Origin: a virus
Strand: one strand, 5' to 3'
Length of the DNA stretch: 64,000 nt
Virus record (IMG/VR): IMGVR_UViG_3300032268_001383
Coordinates: 1-64,000 of that record
This document shows positions 13,413 to 52,892 of the stretch, one piece after another. The position numbers were made by a program, and so were the translations under genes. The notes under the pieces are model-generated. The model worked only from the letters and a program-made list of their open reading frames with translations, was not told where the DNA came from and did not search any database. How positions within the stretch are numbered: position 1 is the stretch's first letter; each line of letters starts with the position of its first letter.

Positions 13413-14042
13413 ATGAAAAAAATAACACTAATTTTAATACTATTTTGCACTAAGTTATTTTCTCAAAGTCCGGAAGTAGACACTGTTATCACTACAAAAA
13501 TTTACAAATCATATTTTGATTTTGAGAAAAAACAATGTTTACAGGTAAATTATATACTTTGGAAGGGCGGTGGTGAATGTGATAGAAGTCGATTCAGATT
13601 CACAAATGATACTCATATTCAAACATCCAATCCAAAAGATTATTACAAGAGTGGTTTTGATATGGGTCATTTAGTACCAGCTGAAGATTTTGCTTGGGAT
13701 TGTGAGTTAGAAGAATTGACTTTTAGGATGTATAATTGCTTACCACAATCACCAAACTTAAATAGGGGAATTTGGAAAAAATGGGAAAATAGAATTAGGC
13801 AGGAATCTCAAACAGATTCACTATTGATAATATGTGGTGCTACTTTTTCAGATAAAATGATTGGTGACAGCGTATCTATACCAAAGTACTTTTACAAAAT
13901 TGTGAGTTCTTTAAGAACGGGAAAATTGAAGTGGGTCCTTTGGTTTGAAAATGTAAAAGAGGGCGCAGAATCTCTTTCAGAAATCATTACATTTGAAGAG
14001 TTGGAAAAAAGATTAGGCTACAAAGTAAAATTACAATACTAA
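13413..14042 (+). CDS. Secreted DNA/RNA non-specific endonuclease (NUC1 family)
   Basis: A 209-residue beta-beta-alpha-metal nuclease. A signal peptide (residues 1-18, ending F-S-Q as in Flavobacterium exported proteins) is followed by the catalytic motif GFDMGHLVPAEDF; His86 is the general base and the usual DRGH is DMGH here. The downstream NLNRGIWKKWE supplies the metal-binding Asn (about 117) and Glu. Export implies action in the periplasm or outside the cell, for example degrading extracellular or competing phage DNA (inference). It starts at the base after the preceding stop. Confidence 0.85.
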   Translation: MKKITLILILFCTKLFSQSPEVDTVITTKIYKSYFDFEKKQCLQVNYILWKGGGECDRSRFRFTNDTHIQTSNPKDYYKSGFDMGHLVPAEDFAWDCELEELTFRMYNCLPQSPNLNRGIWKKWENRIRQESQTDSLLIICGATFSDKMIGDSVSIPKYFYKIVSSLRTGKLKWVLWFENVKEGAESLSEIITFEELEKRLGYKVKLQY

Positions 14043-14257: not shown

Positions 14258-14692
14258 TTATTTTAAAAATCTTTCTATTTCTCTTTTTGCGTCTTTCAAC
14301 TTTAAGTCGTTTCTTTTATCATATAATTTCTTACCCTTAGCAACAGCAATTTTAACTTTAAATCTACCATTATTCAAAAATATTTCAACTGGTATCACAG
14401 TAATACCATTTTCACGAGTTAGTTTTGAAATTTCTTTGATTTCTTTTTTATGTAGTAATAATTTTCTATCTCTCTTTTCCTGATGATTATTATAGGTTGA
14501 TTCGTAATATTTAGATATGGATATATTTTTTATAAAAATCTCACCATCCCAGACATAGCAAAAACCATCACCTATATTACAATTACCATTTCTAAGTGAT
14601 TTTACTTCAGATCCAGTTAATTGAATTCCAGCAGTGAATGTCTCTATAAAATGATACTCAAAACTAGCCTTGCGATTGAAAATTTTAGACAT
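14258..14692 (-). CDS. smpB: SmpB, tmRNA-binding protein
   Basis: A 144-residue full-length SmpB. Family hallmarks are visible in order: NRKASFEYHFIETFTAGI, LTGSEVKSLRNG, the RKLLLHKKEI segment, AKGKKLYDKR and DAKREIERFLK. SmpB brings tmRNA to stalled ribosomes for trans-translation. No tmRNA gene is seen here, so it would work with host tmRNA or have another role. Hosts already encode SmpB, so a phage copy may adjust ribosome rescue during infection (inference). It sits between thioredoxin and the I78-like gene on the minus strand. Confidence 0.9.
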   Translation of the reverse strand: MSKIFNRKASFEYHFIETFTAGIQLTGSEVKSLRNGNCNIGDGFCYVWDGEIFIKNISISKYYESTYNNHQEKRDRKLLLHKKEIKEISKLTRENGITVIPVEIFLNNGRFKVKIAVAKGKKLYDKRNDLKLKDAKREIERFLK

Positions 14693-15928: not shown

Positions 15929-16741
15929 TTACAGATACATTTCATCTAAGACATCAAATTCTTTTCTTGTTTCATTTATAAGTATGGCTCTACCGTTTCT
16001 TATTTGACTTTTAATAGTTGATAAAGATTTAGGTGTTCTTGCACTCACAATATATTTACCTGGATTTATCGATATTTCAGTAAAAAAAGGTGTTTTCTTA
16101 GTGTCTCCTTCGATTAGGTTAAATTCTTCAATATTATTACCGAAACTATCCATTATTTTATAGACTTTTGATAACTCCATTGGAAGTGGACATTTATCCT
16201 GTAGTTGAACATTAATTTCAAACTTAACATCCCTACCTTGGTTACAAGCTATGTTTTTGTAGGTCATTTTCTTCAACTCACGCATTTCAATGACTGTTTT
16301 ATATGGATCTTTAAGAGCTGAAATGCGACACTTCATAATTTCTGATTTTTTATCATTTAATTCTTGTAGATGTAGATAACTCTCCTCCTCTTGAATGAAG
16401 TCTTTAAGAGTTGTGCCTTCTTCGTCAAGTTCAACATCAAGTGACATAGTTTTTCTTGTAGGTTTGATGTCTTGTAATGCAAGATTTTTTGCAATTGTAA
16501 ATAGCCAAGTAGAGAATTGAGATTTTTCTTTTTCGTACTTTTCTATTTTCTCGAAAGCTGCTAAAAAAGAATCAGTGGAGATATCTTCTGCTTTTTGTTG
16601 ATCATTACAAATTTTTGAGGTAAAATAAACAAGTTTTGGGTAATACTTTTGGTAGAGTGTATTGAAATCTTTACCAGTTTGTTCTTTAAAGATTACTTCT
16701 TGATCTGAAAATGAGTTAATTGATTTTAATTGTTCTGACAT
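15929..16741 (-). CDS. ECF-like sigma factor with an insertion in region 4
   Basis: A 270-residue sigma-70-family protein. Region 2 (about 25-93) carries FNTLYQKYYPKLVYF and QFSTWLFTIAKNLALQDIK, the core-binding and -10 region. Region 4 begins at about 143 (DPYKTVIEMRELKKMTYKNIA), but the expected recognition helix is displaced: about 70 residues (167-236) of beta-rich sequence intervene before SLSTIKSQIRNGRAILI (239-255). Normal ECF factors join these two helices with a short turn. The insert is not intein-like (no HN-C/S end). It is a good candidate for directing RNA polymerase to phage promoters. Confidence 0.75.
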   Translation of the reverse strand: MSEQLKSINSFSDQEVIFKEQTGKDFNTLYQKYYPKLVYFTSKICNDQQKAEDISTDSFLAAFEKIEKYEKEKSQFSTWLFTIAKNLALQDIKPTRKTMSLDVELDEEGTTLKDFIQEEESYLHLQELNDKKSEIMKCRISALKDPYKTVIEMRELKKMTYKNIACNQGRDVKFEINVQLQDKCPLPMELSKVYKIMDSFGNNIEEFNLIEGDTKKTPFFTEISINPGKYIVSARTPKSLSTIKSQIRNGRAILINETRKEFDVLDEMYL

Positions 16742-16812: not shown

Positions 16813-16826
16813 AAATTATATATTAA
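16813..16826 (-). promoter_or_regulatory. Candidate phage promoter box for the sigma gene
   Basis: On the minus strand this reads TTAATATATAATTT, about 72 nt upstream of the sigma-factor ATG. It is the same box as at other operon starts, so the sigma gene might be under the same control. Confidence 0.4.
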
Positions 16827-16974: not shown

Positions 16975-16985
16975 TTAATATATAA
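16975..16985 (+). promoter_or_regulatory. Candidate phage promoter box for the large virion operon
   Basis: TTAATATATAA ends 19 nt upstream of the ATG at 17005, the first gene of the 17.0-25.6 kb operon. Confidence 0.5.
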
Positions 16986-17004: not shown

Positions 17005-20000
17005 ATGGCTATACAAAGCTCTTATGCGTCAGTCGCCGAACAGGTAGTAATATTTAATAATAATGTTGTAGATCTACTATCAAAAATAAATACATTAGTA
17101 ACTACTAGTGAATCTTCAGTATCTGTTAATATTACTGATACCACTGGTGTGATTAGACAATTTAATTTACCTTCTTTTGGATTTCTAAAATCAGAAATTG
17201 ACAGACTTAATAATAATGTTAATTCTATTTATAGTATAAATGATGCTGGTGCCTTAATCCAACCTTCAAATGGCACTAAATTCAGAAAAATAATTACAGT
17301 GGATTTAAATAGAGAACCAAATGACTTAGGAACTTTGGCAAATTTCACAAATTTCAAAACAAAGAAAAACTGGTTTTTTGATAGTCTACTAAATCCACAA
17401 CTTTTTATTGAACTTGACTTAACAAACCAAGTTGAGAATAATGTCAGAAAGGTTTTATGTAGAAGATACATCCCTGAATTTGCTAAAGATGTGTCAGGTA
17501 GTTTTACACCACTTGGTCAATCAGCTGTTAATAGTTTTAATAATTTATTCAGAGGTAAGAATGATTTTACATTAGATGATTTCTTACAATGGCACCGTAG
17601 TACACCTGGGGTACTATCACCTAATAATCCAAATTATGACGAGCAAATGTTTGATTTTGAACCAAATCGTCTCGAATTTGATGGTACATTCACGGTAATT
17701 AGAATTGAAGAAGATACTATCAATAGAAAGTTATTCTATCATATAAATTCTTTGAATTATGTAAGAAATTTGGTCACTGGTGGCGAAACCATTCAGCAGA
17801 ATACTCAGTTAAAAGTTGGTGATGAGTTGATTATAAACGTACCTATCACTTCTACAAGATATAAAATAATTGAGATTTCTACAACTGCCTCAAACCCGAG
17901 AATTAGAGTTGAAAGGATAGAAGGAAATGAACCAATCCCGGTTGGTGTACAAACTCTAAAAATATATTCTCCAGTAATTTACGATAAAAAAGTTCTTGTA
18001 AGCGTTGGATACAATGAAAGAAATACATTATTTGTAAAGGCTCTCAATATGGACAATTACATATTGTCTAAAAATTGGAGCAGTGGTGTTGGATTCTGGA
18101 CAAATGACTTGAGAGATATTGATAGTGGATTATCCATGGAACAATTTTACACTGATAGTGTTTTAGATTATGGACAAGTTTTGACAGATTTAGTCTCGAA
18201 AAAAACTCCCGATGTTTTAGCAGCGACTCCAAATATTGTGAACTTGCTAGCGGATAATTTCAAAGTTGTACAAATTAATAGGCACTTAACAGATACACCC
18301 GACTCTAATAATTTAAAAATAAAACATAATCAACAAAAGAATCTTAAATCTGAAATACAGCAATTATCGGATGCAATACAACAGAAAAATAAACAACTAA
18401 AAATACAGAGGTTTACTTCTGATGCAGAAAGAAAACAATTTTCAAATGAACTAAATTCATTGAATAATCAAAAAGAATCAAAGAACAAATTGCTGAGTTC
18501 TGTGACTAGTGAAATTTTGAGTCTCTCTAATACAATTGATACTAGAGTAGAACCAATTTTCAGAATTAGAGGTTTTTGGTCGTTACCACAGCCGGTAATA
18601 ACCAAGGGAACAAAACCACAAGAAGTTGTTCAATTCCGAGTGCAATATAAATACCTAAGCAAAGATGGTAGAGAATCACCAATTGAAACTACTGTGTTAG
18701 CCGATTCTGTGACTAGTAATACAACTGGTTCACTTTCAAATTGGATTGAATATAAGACGGATGTCAGAAAAAGGGTTCTTGACAATAGCACTGGTGTTTA
18801 TAATTGGCAATCCGAAGATTTGTCAAATCCAGATACTCCAAATATAAACCAATTAGATATTCCAATCAGAAGTGGTGAGCAGGTGTTGGTAAGAATTAAA
18901 TCGATTTCCGAAGTTGGGTGGCCGGAGTCTCCACTAGAATCAGACTGGTCAAATGAGTTAGTAATTGATTTCCCAGATAGTTTATCAACAATATTCAATG
19001 AAAGTAGTTCTATAATAACTGAGGCAACAAAAGAAGATATGAGAATTGCTGTTGAGAACGATTTGGCTGCTAAGGGTTTAGACGATCATTTATCGGAGCA
19101 AATAACTGTAAATAATGTAACTTATTATCACACTGCTAATAAAATTCTTTCAGGTTTTAGAGATGAAAACGGCACTGCAATAGACCTCTATCAATATATT
19201 TTAGCTTTAGAAACAAGAATCAAATCATTAGAAGAGCAAGTTAGGAAGGTTAAAGGTGAGCTCGAAATTATTGTTTATAGAAATAATGAATTATTCACAG
19301 TCACAAATGGATCTGAATTGACATTTACAGTTGAGTGTGAAGATTATTTGGATCAATATAGCGCAACTGGTGTACCTACTGGTAGAGTATATCAAAATAA
19401 TATTTATGTCATAAAGGATTTCTTAGTAAAGTTTAGAAATAAATCGGTAGATTCACCCCTGGGATTACTATCTAATAGAAACTATTCAAATAGTAACAGT
19501 GACTTCTTTAATTCAACTGCACCACAGGTATTCTGGGTTAATCAACTTAATGAGTTGATTGTAGATAATTCTACTGGAGCAACAAAAACTCAGAAAAACA
19601 ATCAATTTATCTGGTCCACGAATTTTGATTCAGTAACAGTAAAATCAGCTACAAAACTTTCGGAAAATATTGGTAATCGATTTTCGAACAATGTGAATAG
19701 TAATATTTCACAACTAAACACAACAAATTCAATTACAGATGTTTTGAGTTCAGACGAATACAATATTGGATATTCGGAAAAGACTATATTATCGTTTATA
19801 GGTAATAATAATTCATTACTGGATACGTCAAAGTGGTTAGATAATAAAGTTTCAATTGCGTCAACAACAAAGCTGTTATCAACAATACATCCACAGATTC
19901 AAAATTTAGATAAGATAGTCGAAACTAATGTATCAAAGGTAAGGGCAATCAAAGGTGGTGAGGCAAATGATGTCGATGTTCCAATAAACATTTATTTTAA

Positions 20001-34635: not shown

Positions 34636-34660
34636 AATTATATATTAAATTTAATATATA
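34636..34660. promoter_or_regulatory. Divergent promoter boxes within a 20-bp palindrome
   Basis: ATATATTAAATTTAATATAT (34640-34659) is a perfect palindrome. Read to the right it supplies TTTAATATATA (34650-34660) 18 nt before the ATG at 34679; read to the left it supplies TTTAATATATAATT (34649-34636) 24 nt before the Nudix ATG. Confidence 0.5.
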
Positions 34661-46127: not shown

Positions 46128-49100
46128 TTAGTTAGCAGATGTCACCACATTACTGTTTCCCGGTGGTATATTAATTGTTCCACTAACGCCACCTACTGAG
46201 ATAACCGTGTAACTGGTTTGATTATTTACCGTCTCTGAATCAATTGTAAGATTAACATTACCGATGAAGTCAAAGTTTGCATCTGAGTAGTCTATAAAAG
46301 GTGCCTGAGCTGACCAAGGTGTTTGAATTCTTGCATCAATAAGGAAATCTCTTCCATAAATTGTTTCAACCTTTTTATCTTGATAATAATTAAAAAATGG
46401 TACCATATCAACTTCATAAAAAGAGATATTATTAAAAAGTATATCAATTGAATTGTTAATCACCGGTTGCGGGAAGTTAACTGGCAATGGTGGTGTTCCG
46501 GTTTCTGTTAAACTCGAAAATACTTCTATATTCAAATCCAAATTTTTCTTATTAAAGAAGAATTGTCTTTGTGTTAGAGATGGATTTGCCAATTCACTAT
46601 AAAATAACTCATAATTGTTGAAATTTGGTACAAGATTAAAATTAGCGCCCCTACCATGAGTATAGACAGGTGTGGTCGGTGTAGACCAAGTGCCAGGTTT
46701 TATATCAAGTCTATGCAAATTAACCTCAGTTAAATAATATCTATTTCTAATAGTCTCAATATTATCATTATTTAAGACTACTCTTGCGAATCTAAAGTGA
46801 ATTTTAGTATTTGGTGTCCATATTTGTATTATAGCCGATCCAAAAGCCGTTGAGGTTTTAAGTCTGAGTCTATTTGCAGTTAGTGAGTCACCACTTGTAT
46901 TAGAATTTATATTGGAATCTATCTGTACTGGATTCAGTGTAGAAATATTGAGTAATTGTCCAACTGCAACAGAAGAAGTAATTGAGAATGTTGACGAAAA
47001 ATCATTTACGTACCAACCATTATTATTGAAATTTGTTAGATCGAGTCCATATCCAATATTGTTGCTGAATGGTTCTGTAAAATTACCCCCATTAGGTATG
47101 AAATTTTGATATATTTTGAATTTTGTACCTAATTTATAAGTGAAGTTTCTGTTGTTGTAATCCCTAAATATTGAAGAACTCTCTAAAATATCATCTGTAG
47201 TACCACCTTGTAATAATATAGGATCATCCCCAGAATAAATCCCGTCATATGATTGTAATATAGTATCTTCAGTCACAGAATATGTAAATATACTGGTGGC
47301 TATAGTAGGTGGATAATTATTCAATTTAAATAAGACGGATTCTTCATTTATAGTGGTTTTAGTTTTTTCAACATAATTTACATCTATCCAAGATTGCCAC
47401 TTGGGTAATCCGGATGTTGCGTCAACACTATTGTTGTCTATAAAAGTAAAATTCTGAACCAATCCAGTGTTATAACTACTGACTAGTGGAATCTGTGATT
47501 TTCTTGATATAAATCTACCACCATCGAATTTACCATCAATCCAATGCGTATTACCTATTGTTCCGATTCGTGGATAGCTTTTGAATAAGCCGTTATTCCA
47601 TACTCCTCTGAATGAACCATTTAAGAAAGCACCTGATAACCAAATGTTTTTAGTAAGGTATATAAGGTGATTCTCAGAGTCTCTTTCAACACGCATCACT
47701 GGAAAGTTTGTTACCAACTCAACAACTACTGTATTGAATGTCAAATCTATTTCGGATATTGTGAAATAATCTTTGATTAATTTTCTATTCTCATTAATAT
47801 CGATAGCAACTAAATTACCAATCGAAATTTTATCACCTACATTCAATCCTTGAAGTGTATCAATTGATTGAAGTGTTACTAACCAACTAATTGGACTTAT
47901 TTGATATGTGCCTTTTCCAGCATAAGGTGTTACACCATTCAATCCAACTACATTGGAAAATTTATAATAATCTTCTTCCCCTAACATTGAATTACTTCTA
48001 AAACCGTTATTCCAAATTCCATTTTCCCAGATACCAGATTTGAATATGCCGTTTCCAATGTTAATACTAACCAAATTACCGTCTTTTGAAGCAGCCAAAA
48101 CTGTTAAGTTTGGATCATTTGGTAGCACAACTCTATCATTAACAAAAATTATCGAGTTTGATATTATTGCGTTATTATAAAGTGGATGGTATTCAAATAC
48201 TCTTTCAACAATACTTAGATAAAGAACTCTAAGTTTCCCACCTCTTCCCTTTTTGATATAAAATCTGGTATCGTCTGGTGTTATAATTGGATTTCCTGTA
48301 GTATAAATAAAAGTTATATCATGTTGGAAAGGGAAATAGAATATATTATTACCCACCTGTTGTGAAATACTTGGGAGCGTTAATTTTATTTCATCCTTAT
48401 TGCCTATCTTTACAAATACATCTACCTTCTCTTTACCTTCAACAGTTAACTGCAAACTCAAAATATAAGTTTTATCAGGTTGTGAAAATACTTCTAAGTT
48501 AGGAGTCAATCCATTTATACAAGCAAAAAGTCTATTGCTTTCAGGTTCTTCCCTGTTTGGTTGTGGTGTAACGGTTTGTGTGTATACATGGCCGTTTGTA
48601 ATAATCTGACCACCACTCAATGAAAAAGTAGTACCGTGAACCCATCTTGCACTATTATATATCACGGGGTTAATAGAACCCGAGGTGTTTAAACCAAGTG
48701 GATTAGATATTGAGTTATTATTATTTAGTGTCTCTTCGTAGAAATATTGTTCGTTATTCCCAGAGTAAACACTGCTAGTCGAAAAGTTCAAACTATTTAT
48801 ATTCGGATCAGTTAAAATGACATAAGCTACTGAAGCTGAAAAGGCATTATTTACATATATTTTGTTATTGTTTCCTAAATTTATAGCAACATTCAAAATT
48901 ATATCTCTACTTCTACCAGGTTTCAATTCAAGTGGAGTGAGTGTTGTATCAATATCAGAATATCCAAATGGTGCACCATTCCAATTTCCGTTTCTCCACA
49001 AACCATCTAACCATATAATATTGTCTGCAAATCCGTAATTCCAAACTCCTTCTCTCCATAGTGCACCAGACATATAACCCCTATTGAATGTTCCAGACTT

Positions 49101-52100
49101 CCATTCTGAAATATAAAATGAGGCAGTACCAAGTGTGGAATCAAAGTTCCCACCATGCCATACACAAGATTGTGTAGTTGCAAAAGATGAGGAGTTTGTA
49201 CCACTGAAGCTTCTATCAACATAAGCATTGAAAATCGACGAATCGAATGTACCATTATAGAAATTACCACTTAGCCATACCGAATTTTCGAATATTGCGT
49301 TTTTGTGACTAAATGTACCTGACATCCAGAGCACATTCGAGAATTTTACTGAATTATCAATACTAACCTCTTCTACTTTTCTAACAGGTTCAGTTATTAC
49401 TCTTTCTTCTGTCTTAATATTTTTTGGATTATCTGAAACATCACCACTTATCCACAAACCAAAATAGTCATTTCTAAATGAATCGGCAAAATTGTATTCT
49501 CCCATATTGGAAACGTTGGAATTATAGATTGAACTTCCACTGCCACTTCCAAAAAATTCACCCTTTGTGAATAGACCACTATACCACATTCTACCTTGGA
49601 AATTACCACCCTTGAATTCACCAGTATACCAAACCGAATTCGTTAATGTTGAACCATTACCAAACTCTCCACCTAAAAATTTCCCATCTTCCCAACCATA
49701 ATGTATAGAATAGGTTGATGAGTTAGTAGGAGATGAATATGTCATACCATAATAAGAATGAAATTTCCCTTTGGTAAATTTACCATTTTTCCAACGAGCC
49801 AAACCAGTAAATTTACCATTATTAAAATCACCTGAATACCAAATAGATTCATTTGTTGTGTTAGATCCAAAACTCGTGAATTCACCGTTATTAAATTTCC
49901 CACCATACCAATAAACTGATGAGGAACCACCAATAATAGCGTTTTCAACAATTCCATCGTTCCAAATTGTTTGTGTTCCACTTATAGTCAGTGGACTGTA
50001 GTATGACATTTTTGTGTCTAAATATCTCAAATTTGAGCTACCTAGGATACCATTGTTCCAAATACCTGAATACCAATCCGAATTATAGAATCTACCATTA
50101 CTGAAAGTTCCATTGGCCCAAACTGAATTATAGAATTCACCACCGTCAAAATTTCCAAGTAACCAATTTCTATATAATTGTGTTGTATTATCATAATCTT
50201 GTCTAGTTGGGTTAACATCCTTACTGTTTATGAAACTTCCATTCAGGAATCTACCACTCTGCCAATATCCTGAATTGAATATTCCATTTTTGAAGGTAGC
50301 TCCATTCCAAATTGAATTCAAAATTATACCAGAATTCCAAATATCATTGACAAAGTGTGATTTGAAAATATATCCGGAATTTATCTGATTTAGTGTATTC
50401 TTGAAAATAATATTTATTAATCTGAGTCTTTCAACATTAATCGGATCGATATTTTTATCTAAATTATTAAAATTGGTGTTCTTTATAACGTTATTTTTCA
50501 AAGAAGTATTAACAAAAAGACCTGAATTAATTGTTGAATTTTCAATTCTAAACTTATGTATTGATGAATAATTATTATTATCAGCACCTGTAGTCCTAAA
50601 AATATCAAAGATTGAATTAGAGAAAGTCAGACCATCGATACTCGATAGTGTAATTTCTTTTATGTTCGATATTACATTAATAGAATTAACTCTGTATTTA
50701 CCATCTATTGACTTGATAGTTGTACCGATTATCTGTTCTATTGAATTTATCCAAACAATATCTCCAACAAATAAATCTTCACCTGGTATATTGATATCTC
50801 TATTCATTGGATTTAATGGAAGACTTACATTAATTGTATCTGGTGTGAATGATTCAATTGAGAGTATGTTTGATGGTGATAATCTGATTCTATGATGTCG
50901 ATAATTGATATTATTACCACTAATCCAGTTTGAGTTTACTAAATACCCATTCTTATAATCGAGATTACTCAAGGAAGATTTAGAAAATAGTAAATCAATT
51001 TGATTCGGTAGGATCGGACTAAGGCAATATTCTATACCAGTATTGTAAGGTGGTGTATTTACAAGTGTTATGGTGTTTTCCCAAAATGCTAGTGCAGAAG
51101 TATCAATATCAATTGAAGAGTAATCACTATTTTGAAGAGAAAAATTAGTCTGATATCCAGATAAAGTTTGCCTCACAATTGACTTAACCTTGTTGTCATT
51201 CTTGTTTTTAACACTAACAATTATTTTTCTTCTACTCAAATCACTATTTGAATAAATATCAAAAATAAACTTGTTTTCAATAGGAAGTTTTATTCTCTGA
51301 TCATTCGATAAACTAGTTAAAAATAAATTTTTATTTAATTTTGTTAGATAAAAAGCATCCCCACTTTGGATTTTCTGAGAGTCTGCATCTGAAATGTATA
51401 ATTTTAGTATACCTCTAACAGATAAGGTAGTCAAATCAGTGTTATATGACCATAGATCAGCCCCTATCACATTAATACCTTCTTCGTCATTTACTTGGGA
51501 TTTTTCACCAACAGAATAAACTACTTGAGAATTAACTATATTTGAATTCACAATGTGTGAGTTGTTGACATAACTCGTGTTTAGAGTTGCTCTTTCAGTT
51601 TCTACTGCATCTATATCACATTTTTTAAATAATCCAGAAATTTTTAAATCATAACTAAAAGTTTGTCCTAAATAAACGTCTAAGGCTGAAACTGTCGATC
51701 CTATGCCTAAATTACAATTCTCGAAATTTCCATTTTTTATATCACCTCTTATAATACTTGAATCTTCTACTAAATTGAATCCAAATCCTCTATTATTTGA
51801 AAAGTCAATAGTTTGAATAGGTGAATTAGTGGACGTTTTATCTAATGTAGAAAAGAAGAATTTCTCACCTGCTGCAGATTTAGATTCCATGGTGCCAGAA
51901 TTCCAATTGGAGTTCATAAAAATACCCGAATTCCAAGTTGCGTTGTTCCAATTATTCTTTCTTTCAAAGCTACCAAAAACACCATCCTTATGATTTCCAC
52001 CAAAGTTACCATATCTAAAATTTAATCTTGAAATGAATGGTTTTTTATATCTAATATCTAAGTTCCAAATACCATCAAGATGTGTATAGGTATTTCTCTG

Positions 52101-52892
52101 TTTGAATTCTATAGACCCAATTATAAAGTTTTCACCATTTATGTAGAGTTTGCTTTCAACTGTTGCATAATTTTGATTAACCAATCTTAATTTATTATCT
52201 AGTACCAATTGAGTTATGTTTACCCAAGTAGGTGTACTTGACGAGTCGTCTCTTAAATAAAAACCAGAACTGCTTACACCGCTATTCAGATTGAGTGGGT
52301 CTGATGATGCCAAAAACTGTCTTGAGCAATAAATTATACTATCAGAAAAAAGTACAGCTGTTGTTGTGAGTGTAGAACCTAAATTATATAACTTACCAGA
52401 AAATTTTGAAATAGTACCAAGAGTAGCAAATGGAGTTATAGATGTGTTAAGATTGTTAAAAGTTATTCCAAGATGATTAATTTTAATGCTATTAATATAA
52501 TCAAATTCTCTTTGTGTTTCAACATGATTAACTTTAATAGAATTAGTGACATCATCTCCGAAATATGGAAGTTCACCTGTAAATTCTAAATCCAAAATTA
52601 ATCTACATCCATCACAAGCTAAAACTCTATACCCATCCGTAAACTTACTGTATTTATCTCGTGATATAAATAAATCAGAATCATAATTTCCATTTACGAT
52701 AAAGATTCTATCACCAACATTAAAGTTTGTACTAGATTCAGTATAAAAAACTGTTTTTTTAGAACCAGAGATTTCAATAGATTCTACATAATTCAAGAGT
52801 ATAGAACTATAGAATTTATTAGAAACTGTCGTTTTCTGAAATGTTATATTTTCCTCAAGTGGATTTAAGCTTGTTACAACTGGAATTGCCAT
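46128..52892 (-). CDS. Giant virion protein with aromatic-centred pentapeptide repeats
   Basis: A 2254-residue protein. Several hundred residues in the middle (about 290-340, 800-1330 and 1650-1780) repeat a five-residue unit of the form G-x-[WF]-x-[NSG] (GTFSN, GRFYN, SDWYS, GIWNN). This spacing is that of right-handed quadrilateral beta-helices (pentapeptide repeat proteins), but with Trp/Phe in the centre instead of Leu. The ends are normal beta-rich domains. The gene has a promoter box and stands alone. Its size, composition and likeness to the giant proteins at 17-24.5 kb suggest a virion filament or adhesion protein. Confidence 0.65.
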   Translation of the reverse strand: MAIPVVTSLNPLEENITFQKTTVSNKFYSSILLNYVESIEISGSKKTVFYTESSTNFNVGDRIFIVNGNYDSDLFISRDKYSKFTDGYRVLACDGCRLILDLEFTGELPYFGDDVTNSIKVNHVETQREFDYINSIKINHLGITFNNLNTSITPFATLGTISKFSGKLYNLGSTLTTTAVLFSDSIIYCSRQFLASSDPLNLNSGVSSSGFYLRDDSSSTPTWVNITQLVLDNKLRLVNQNYATVESKLYINGENFIIGSIEFKQRNTYTHLDGIWNLDIRYKKPFISRLNFRYGNFGGNHKDGVFGSFERKNNWNNATWNSGIFMNSNWNSGTMESKSAAGEKFFFSTLDKTSTNSPIQTIDFSNNRGFGFNLVEDSSIIRGDIKNGNFENCNLGIGSTVSALDVYLGQTFSYDLKISGLFKKCDIDAVETERATLNTSYVNNSHIVNSNIVNSQVVYSVGEKSQVNDEEGINVIGADLWSYNTDLTTLSVRGILKLYISDADSQKIQSGDAFYLTKLNKNLFLTSLSNDQRIKLPIENKFIFDIYSNSDLSRRKIIVSVKNKNDNKVKSIVRQTLSGYQTNFSLQNSDYSSIDIDTSALAFWENTITLVNTPPYNTGIEYCLSPILPNQIDLLFSKSSLSNLDYKNGYLVNSNWISGNNINYRHHRIRLSPSNILSIESFTPDTINVSLPLNPMNRDINIPGEDLFVGDIVWINSIEQIIGTTIKSIDGKYRVNSINVISNIKEITLSSIDGLTFSNSIFDIFRTTGADNNNYSSIHKFRIENSTINSGLFVNTSLKNNVIKNTNFNNLDKNIDPINVERLRLINIIFKNTLNQINSGYIFKSHFVNDIWNSGIILNSIWNGATFKNGIFNSGYWQSGRFLNGSFINSKDVNPTRQDYDNTTQLYRNWLLGNFDGGEFYNSVWANGTFSNGRFYNSDWYSGIWNNGILGSSNLRYLDTKMSYYSPLTISGTQTIWNDGIVENAIIGGSSSVYWYGGKFNNGEFTSFGSNTTNESIWYSGDFNNGKFTGLARWKNGKFTKGKFHSYYGMTYSSPTNSSTYSIHYGWEDGKFLGGEFGNGSTLTNSVWYTGEFKGGNFQGRMWYSGLFTKGEFFGSGSGSSIYNSNVSNMGEYNFADSFRNDYFGLWISGDVSDNPKNIKTEERVITEPVRKVEEVSIDNSVKFSNVLWMSGTFSHKNAIFENSVWLSGNFYNGTFDSSIFNAYVDRSFSGTNSSSFATTQSCVWHGGNFDSTLGTASFYISEWKSGTFNRGYMSGALWREGVWNYGFADNIIWLDGLWRNGNWNGAPFGYSDIDTTLTPLELKPGRSRDIILNVAINLGNNNKIYVNNAFSASVAYVILTDPNINSLNFSTSSVYSGNNEQYFYEETLNNNNSISNPLGLNTSGSINPVIYNSARWVHGTTFSLSGGQIITNGHVYTQTVTPQPNREEPESNRLFACINGLTPNLEVFSQPDKTYILSLQLTVEGKEKVDVFVKIGNKDEIKLTLPSISQQVGNNIFYFPFQHDITFIYTTGNPIITPDDTRFYIKKGRGGKLRVLYLSIVERVFEYHPLYNNAIISNSIIFVNDRVVLPNDPNLTVLAASKDGNLVSINIGNGIFKSGIWENGIWNNGFRSNSMLGEEDYYKFSNVVGLNGVTPYAGKGTYQISPISWLVTLQSIDTLQGLNVGDKISIGNLVAIDINENRKLIKDYFTISEIDLTFNTVVVELVTNFPVMRVERDSENHLIYLTKNIWLSGAFLNGSFRGVWNNGLFKSYPRIGTIGNTHWIDGKFDGGRFISRKSQIPLVSSYNTGLVQNFTFIDNNSVDATSGLPKWQSWIDVNYVEKTKTTINEESVLFKLNNYPPTIATSIFTYSVTEDTILQSYDGIYSGDDPILLQGGTTDDILESSSIFRDYNNRNFTYKLGTKFKIYQNFIPNGGNFTEPFSNNIGYGLDLTNFNNNGWYVNDFSSTFSITSSVAVGQLLNISTLNPVQIDSNINSNTSGDSLTANRLRLKTSTAFGSAIIQIWTPNTKIHFRFARVVLNNDNIETIRNRYYLTEVNLHRLDIKPGTWSTPTTPVYTHGRGANFNLVPNFNNYELFYSELANPSLTQRQFFFNKKNLDLNIEVFSSLTETGTPPLPVNFPQPVINNSIDILFNNISFYEVDMVPFFNYYQDKKVETIYGRDFLIDARIQTPWSAQAPFIDYSDANFDFIGNVNLTIDSETVNNQTSYTVISVGGVSGTINIPPGNSNVVTSAN

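Follow-up and report, generated by a model that had tools for sequence, protein, structure and literature searches.

Can the two helices with which a sigma factor reads DNA remain a pair when a folded domain is placed in the turn between them, and what might such a domain be for? The question is raised by a gene in the IMG/VR virus record IMGVR_UViG_3300032268_001383, a record of 98,741 bases whose positions 1 to 64,000 are the stretch described here (64,000 nucleotides, nt; hereafter the window). The gene encodes a sigma factor resembling those of the extracytoplasmic function (ECF) group, and the helix-turn-helix (HTH) of its region 4 is split by about 70 residues.

Layout and predicted fold of the sigma factor

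The open reading frame was recovered exactly as in a preliminary description made from the sequence alone, on the minus strand from 16741 to 15929 and 270 amino acids (aa) long, and the boundaries given there for the insert agreed within 1-2 residues with the strands and helices of an AlphaFold2 model. Its parts are as follows.

15929..16741, minus strand: coding sequence (270 aa) of the ECF-like sigma factor whose region 4 is split (Pfam Sigma70_r2, E = 3e-15; PHROG 1740)
16463..16657, minus strand: sigma region 2, residues 29-93 (PF04542, E = 3e-15)
16382..16453, minus strand: flexible linker between sigma2 and sigma4, residues 97-120 (AlphaFold2 predicted local distance difference test score, pLDDT, about 48-60 over residues 91-120)
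16241..16378, minus strand: first part of region 4 with helices 122-142 and 147-156 and the first HTH helix 161-167 (AlphaFold2; PF08281)
16028..16240, minus strand: inserted beta-sandwich-like domain of six strands in the HTH turn, residues 168-238 (missing from insert-free homologues; predicted to fold alone)
15935..16024, minus strand: recognition and C-terminal helix, residues 240-269, 'STIKSQIRNGRAILINETRKEFDVLDEMY' (AlphaFold2 helix 240-269; conserved motif)

Region 2 and the two halves of region 4 mark the protein as a sigma factor, and it deviates from the ECF pattern only in the continuity of the HTH. The 270-aa protein matched the PHROG 1740 family 'RNA polymerase sigma factor' (E = 1.8e-17), and no match to region 3 was found by Pfam or in the AlphaFold2 model, in which helices 26-96 are followed by a short flexible linker and then by helices 122-167 and 240-269. 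The Pfam match to region 4 (PF08281) stayed under its cut-off, covered only residues 136-170 and ended at residue 170. About 71 residues replace the turn, and beyond them the recognition-helix motif common to the homologues, LSTIKSQIRNGR, is present at about 240-251. The pattern T[IV]KS[QRS]I..GR is strongly conserved in insert-bearing and insert-free homologues alike.

The whole-protein model was made by AlphaFold2 from an alignment of 32 homologues (mean pLDDT 88.8). It placed helices at 147-156 and 161-167, strands at 170-178, 184-190, 192-198, 208-211, 220-224 and 228-236, and then a helix at 240-269. The blocks of the insert reached pLDDT 93-98 except for one at 85; the predicted template modelling score (pTM) of the whole model was 0.54 and accompanied the disordered linker 97-120. 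When the insert was modelled alone, with four sequences only, the same strands were obtained (pLDDT 89.6, pTM 0.76). The expectation that a beta-rich segment divides the HTH was thus borne out by the models, in which a helix leads into a separately folding six-stranded domain and the recognition helix follows.

The best matches of the whole model in the PDB, searched by Foldseek, were the ECF sigma factors AlgU, SigE and SigW. The alignment with SigW ran over 250-252 columns on a chain of 155-158 residues, and in the model this suggests that it jumps the insert and reaches the recognition helix. The protein therefore shares with the canonical ECF (group IV) factors SigW, SigE/RpoE and AlgU the arrangement of sigma2, linker and sigma4, with these proteins as its best structural matches. 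Their HTH turn is uninterrupted, and in SigW the HTH reads the -35 element (PMC6713349), whereas in the phage protein a folded domain fills the turn.

Searches with the insert alone had a divided outcome. Its sequence had no significant match in Pfam, PHROG or PDB, one B-type member coming closest with a marginal Big_14 match (E = 0.005), and by structure no significant PDB match was found, while the BFVD database returned one strong match in another phage sigma factor (A0A8D9C9Z7, E = 4.5e-6, 49% identity). The next BFVD matches were head-tail connector proteins (E about 0.03, TM-score about 0.65; A0A4Y5P1B0 with TM 0.65 and E = 0.03), and the P1 connector 9ums_A was weakly similar in fold (TM 0.56, E = 1.4). 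With an identity of 13-20% only, E-values near chance and a different protein context, this likeness to connector or adaptor proteins is a hint only.

The divided turn among relatives

The closest relatives of the sigma factor are found in huge phages, including records of 634 and 642 kb (66-67% identity) and many IMG/VR contigs of up to 508 kb. Insert-free relatives, which are about 60-71% identical, read '...YKDIADELGKNLSTIKSQIRNGR...' across the turn, and the insert-bearing sigma factor reads '...YKNIACNQGRD-insert-TPKSLSTIKSQIRNGR...', with RTPKSLSTIKSQIRNGR likewise beyond the insert. Measurement of the spacer from the motif of the first HTH helix to T[IV]KS gave exactly 9 aa for 53 distinct homologues from phages, versus 74-98 aa for the present protein and ten further homologues (values of 74, 82, 87, 92, 93 or 98 aa). 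An ordinary short turn was also seen by eye at about 80 bacterial sigma loci. The separation of the two helices by some 70 residues, against a few in known ECF factors, therefore holds as first described, and relatives both with and without the insert occur among phages.

Two sequence types of insert were distinguished at the same point. The A type occurs in the present phage and three other lineages (members P0001, L021, L025 and L107), and the B type in relatives of a 735-kb 'Mahaphage' (L055, L057, L058, L059, L063 and the pair L010/L060, which represents the 735-kb phage and a near-identical contig). Al-Shayeb et al. assign the four largest genomes of their study to this 'Mahaphage' clade and predict Bacteroidetes as the hosts (PMC7162821). 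Besides the gene studied here, an insert that is open and conserved was seen at this place in three A-type lineages and six B-type sequences, and the junctions are always in frame. A sigma factor of a 462-kb phage (L100; LR756500.1, about 145.7-146.1 kb) was seen to hold a third kind of insert in the turn, about 45 aa long and apparently helical.

In the closest B-type pair, the nonsynonymous and synonymous rates (dN/dS) were 0.040/0.64 (about 0.06) for the insert and 0.025/0.62 (about 0.04) for the part before it, and by this measure purifying selection acts on the protein sequence of the B-type inserts. Together with the further A and B lineages, the low dN/dS shows at the level of sequence that the insertion is real and not a product of chance or an assembly slip.

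The history of the insert was examined on a tree from which the insert residues had been left out. Presence and absence required 6 changes on the best tree (four for A and two for B), or 11 losses from one origin. Grouping of the A rows as one clade (approximately unbiased, AU, test p = 0.155) or of the B rows as one clade (p = 0.461) was not rejected, and the presence and absence of the insert may equally reflect two gains, several gains, several losses or recombination. Profile comparison detected no similarity between the A and B inserts, which may or may not have a common origin, and a search for a source elsewhere in the phage genomes gave just weak matches at chance level.

The promoter-like box and the possible role of the inserted domain

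The preliminary description had also suggested that the phage has a promoter-like box of its own, and this proved correct. The 9-mer TAATATATA occurs genome-wide far above expectation in upstream regions, at two sharp distances from the ATG of 10-15 and 25-35 nt. In the present genome 17 were observed and 0.9 expected. The corresponding figures were 65/7.8 and 31/4.5 in two A-type genomes (G009 and G011), 69/5.1 in a B-type genome (W03), 101/11.9 and 24/2.0 in two insert-free genomes (W01 and G017) and 27/4.0 in the distant genome W04; in W05, where four sigma matches were found, the enrichment was weak (7/2.5). Two boxes lie near the sigma gene:

16817..16825, minus strand: TAATATATA box before the sigma gene, starting 84 nt before the ATG and so outside the usual 10-35 nt
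16976..16984, plus strand: TAATATATA box 28-29 nt upstream of the large divergent gene at 17005, counted to its ATG (seen in the sequence listing, and in line with the enrichment)

Throughout the 98.7-kb record, in the stretches L226-L361 and L242-L301 and in all close huge-phage relatives sampled, the box is a common element. The 10-15 nt distance would make the transcripts nearly leaderless. At window positions 34639-34660, in an interval between divergent genes, each strand carries one box, and just a few bases separate the two.

A weak signature accompanies the box upstream and is alike in the A, B and insert-free groups: counted from the first A of AATATATA, position -18 is A/T and poor in C, and position -13 favours a purine. 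When box and signature were compared across the three groups, no insert-linked change of note was found; the between-group differences are small, with positions -12, -17 and -23 differing slightly. The only PF04542 sigma factor found in the 735-kb phage record is of B type, and in the 634- and 642-kb phages it is an insert-free homologue. Since a single such sigma factor was found in several of these records, we infer that it reads the TAATATATA box. As box and signature are alike without the insert, the promoter type does not depend on the insert and is not visibly altered by it. The earlier proposal that promoter recognition could respond through the insert to a ligand or partner is hypothetical. 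The suggestion of a late sigma factor is plausible by analogy with the -10-only late promoters of T4 (PMC2988020).

The best explanation, to which we give about even confidence as a whole, is that the phage here makes an ECF-like sigma factor of its own, predicted to bind core RNA polymerase, and that the beta domain is an accessory protein-docking or regulatory module on a sigma4 that still works. The sigma factor would guide the RNA polymerase of the host to promoters that centre on the TAATATATA box, region 2 reading the box and region 4 making a weak -35-like contact upstream. To judge from the strand order in the model, the terminal strands of the insert (170-178 and 228-236) may lie side by side and would keep the two HTH helices together, with DNA reading retained; an HTH can persist around a grafted domain if the first and last strands of that domain lie together, so that the flanking helices are not pulled apart. 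The domain would then jut from sigma4 as an accessory surface for docking a protein, either a phage or host transcription partner or a surface of RNA polymerase. Docking would tune recruitment or timing and leave the promoter sequence preference as it is. Protein docking is favoured over DNA reading by the unchanged promoter signature and by the neutral to acidic inserts (net charge 0 to -13), and a rewriting of promoter specificity by the insert is unlikely.

Several observations weigh against the docking module. The TM-score of the whole model is low, probably due to loosely placed sigma2 and sigma4, and the sigma4 geometry is seen via the model only. The A-type inserts are 38-49% identical, compared with 48-57% for the whole proteins, and many relatives lack the insert, either of which may mean that it is of minor importance. 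Co-occurrence pointed to no convincing partner gene: no protein family was common to the sampled A- and B-type phages yet missing from the insert-free ones, some of the genomes being partial; the exceptions were patchy families in 3-4 genomes, several of them metabolic by eye. The link between sigma factor and box is itself inferred.

The alternatives are taken here in falling order of probability. The first, which we consider improbable but best placed among them, is that sigma4 no longer reads a -35 element at all, that the promoters are -10-only as in T4 late transcription, and that region 4 now serves as an anchor into which domains can be taken up freely. The -35-like signal is indeed weak in all groups, T4 late promoters do without -35 conservation (PMC2988020), and the sigma factor of the 462-kb phage has its own, apparently helical insert in the turn; yet T[IV]KS[QRS]I..GR is strongly conserved with or without an insert, and the -13 purine is favoured in every group. 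A sensor or partner switch, in which the beta domain would open or clamp the HTH pair and promoter binding would become directly allosteric via the turn, is an unlikely further reading; the A and B inserts would then be either one ancient and extremely diverged domain or a convergent solution.

Rather doubtful is also a neutral or selfish passenger domain of little function, swapped by recombination. The patchy distribution, for which the best tree requires 6 or more changes (two gains being also compatible with the AU values above), and the greater divergence of the insert than of the whole protein would fit such a passenger, but not the dN/dS of the B pair, the retention of A-type motifs such as K[TS]PF[FL]T across proteins just 48-57% identical, or the ends that are always joined in frame at the same point. 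We find it slightly harder still to credit that the insert contacts DNA and that the extended HTH lets sigma4 read a longer or different promoter element. Its place beside the DNA-reading helix and the slight differences at -12, -17 and -23 would agree with this, but box and signature hardly differ whether or not the insert is present, the charge of the inserts is neutral to acidic, and the A and B types share a promoter type without detectable similarity to each other. Finally, that the insert reflects an artefact, an intein, an intron or two genes read through as one is suggested by its absence from close relatives but is extremely improbable, and was ruled out, because the inserts (about 65-95 aa, ending in TPK or TTT) lack the C/S start, the C-terminal HN and the length of at least about 120 aa of an intein, are carried by independent contigs and a UniProt model, and are open and in frame, with the B type under protein-level selection.

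Known systems, neighbouring genes and meaning

ECF factors with regulatory extensions resemble the phage protein in carrying an extra domain, proposed to be regulatory, on a minimal sigma factor. The extras described are N- or C-terminal extensions and linker motifs (PMC8999054; OrbS, PMC9023288), whereas the extra of the phage protein is internal, lies inside the HTH and belongs to no Pfam family. In T4 late transcription (gp55 sigma, gp33 co-activator) a phage sigma factor likewise acts on the host polymerase, and the T4 late promoter, a TATA-type, AT-rich -10-type box without a strong -35 element (PMC2988020), is the nearest promoter analogy. However, gp55 has recognisable similarity to sigma domain 2 only, while the phage protein retains both flanking parts of region 4, with an extra domain between them.

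An insert-bearing sigma factor has already been deposited as A0A8D9C9Z7, a 295-aa protein of an uncultured marine phage named 'ECF RNA polymerase sigma factor SigW', with no mention of a split HTH. No description of an insert in the HTH turn was found in the searchable literature on huge-phage sigma factors and ECF architecture, many subscription papers being outside the search. The parts seen of a jumbo-phage review mention inserts in phage polymerase subunits and none in sigma factors (PMC7824862).

Other genes were noted in passing. The window encodes an SmpB (14258-14692, minus strand; PF01668, E = 1.5e-54), and neither transfer-messenger RNA nor transfer RNA was found in the 98.7-kb record. 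A DNA/RNA non-specific endonuclease with an apparent signal peptide is encoded at 13413-14042 on the plus strand, and a 2254-aa protein without Pfam or PHROG match at 46128-52892 on the minus strand. Directly downstream of the insert-free sigma gene in W01 (330.6-331.9 kb, L257) and G017 lies a gene judged by eye to be nucleotidyltransferase-like; it has a homologue in G003, can also be read in L003/L007, and did not turn up in the sampled genomes that carry an insert.

Few parts of a sigma factor are as constrained as the HTH turn, as the fixed spacing of exactly nine residues in 53 homologues illustrates, and the repeated placement of a domain there in some of the largest known phages indicates that it can host one. 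Close relatives with and without the insert, sharing the same box, form a natural on/off comparison suited to the study of promoter control by accessory domains. If the domain did act as an allosteric switch in the turn, this would be a control point undescribed for sigma factors in searchable papers. For the 'Mahaphage' group, on whose transcription little was found written, a concrete sigma factor and a candidate promoter are gained.
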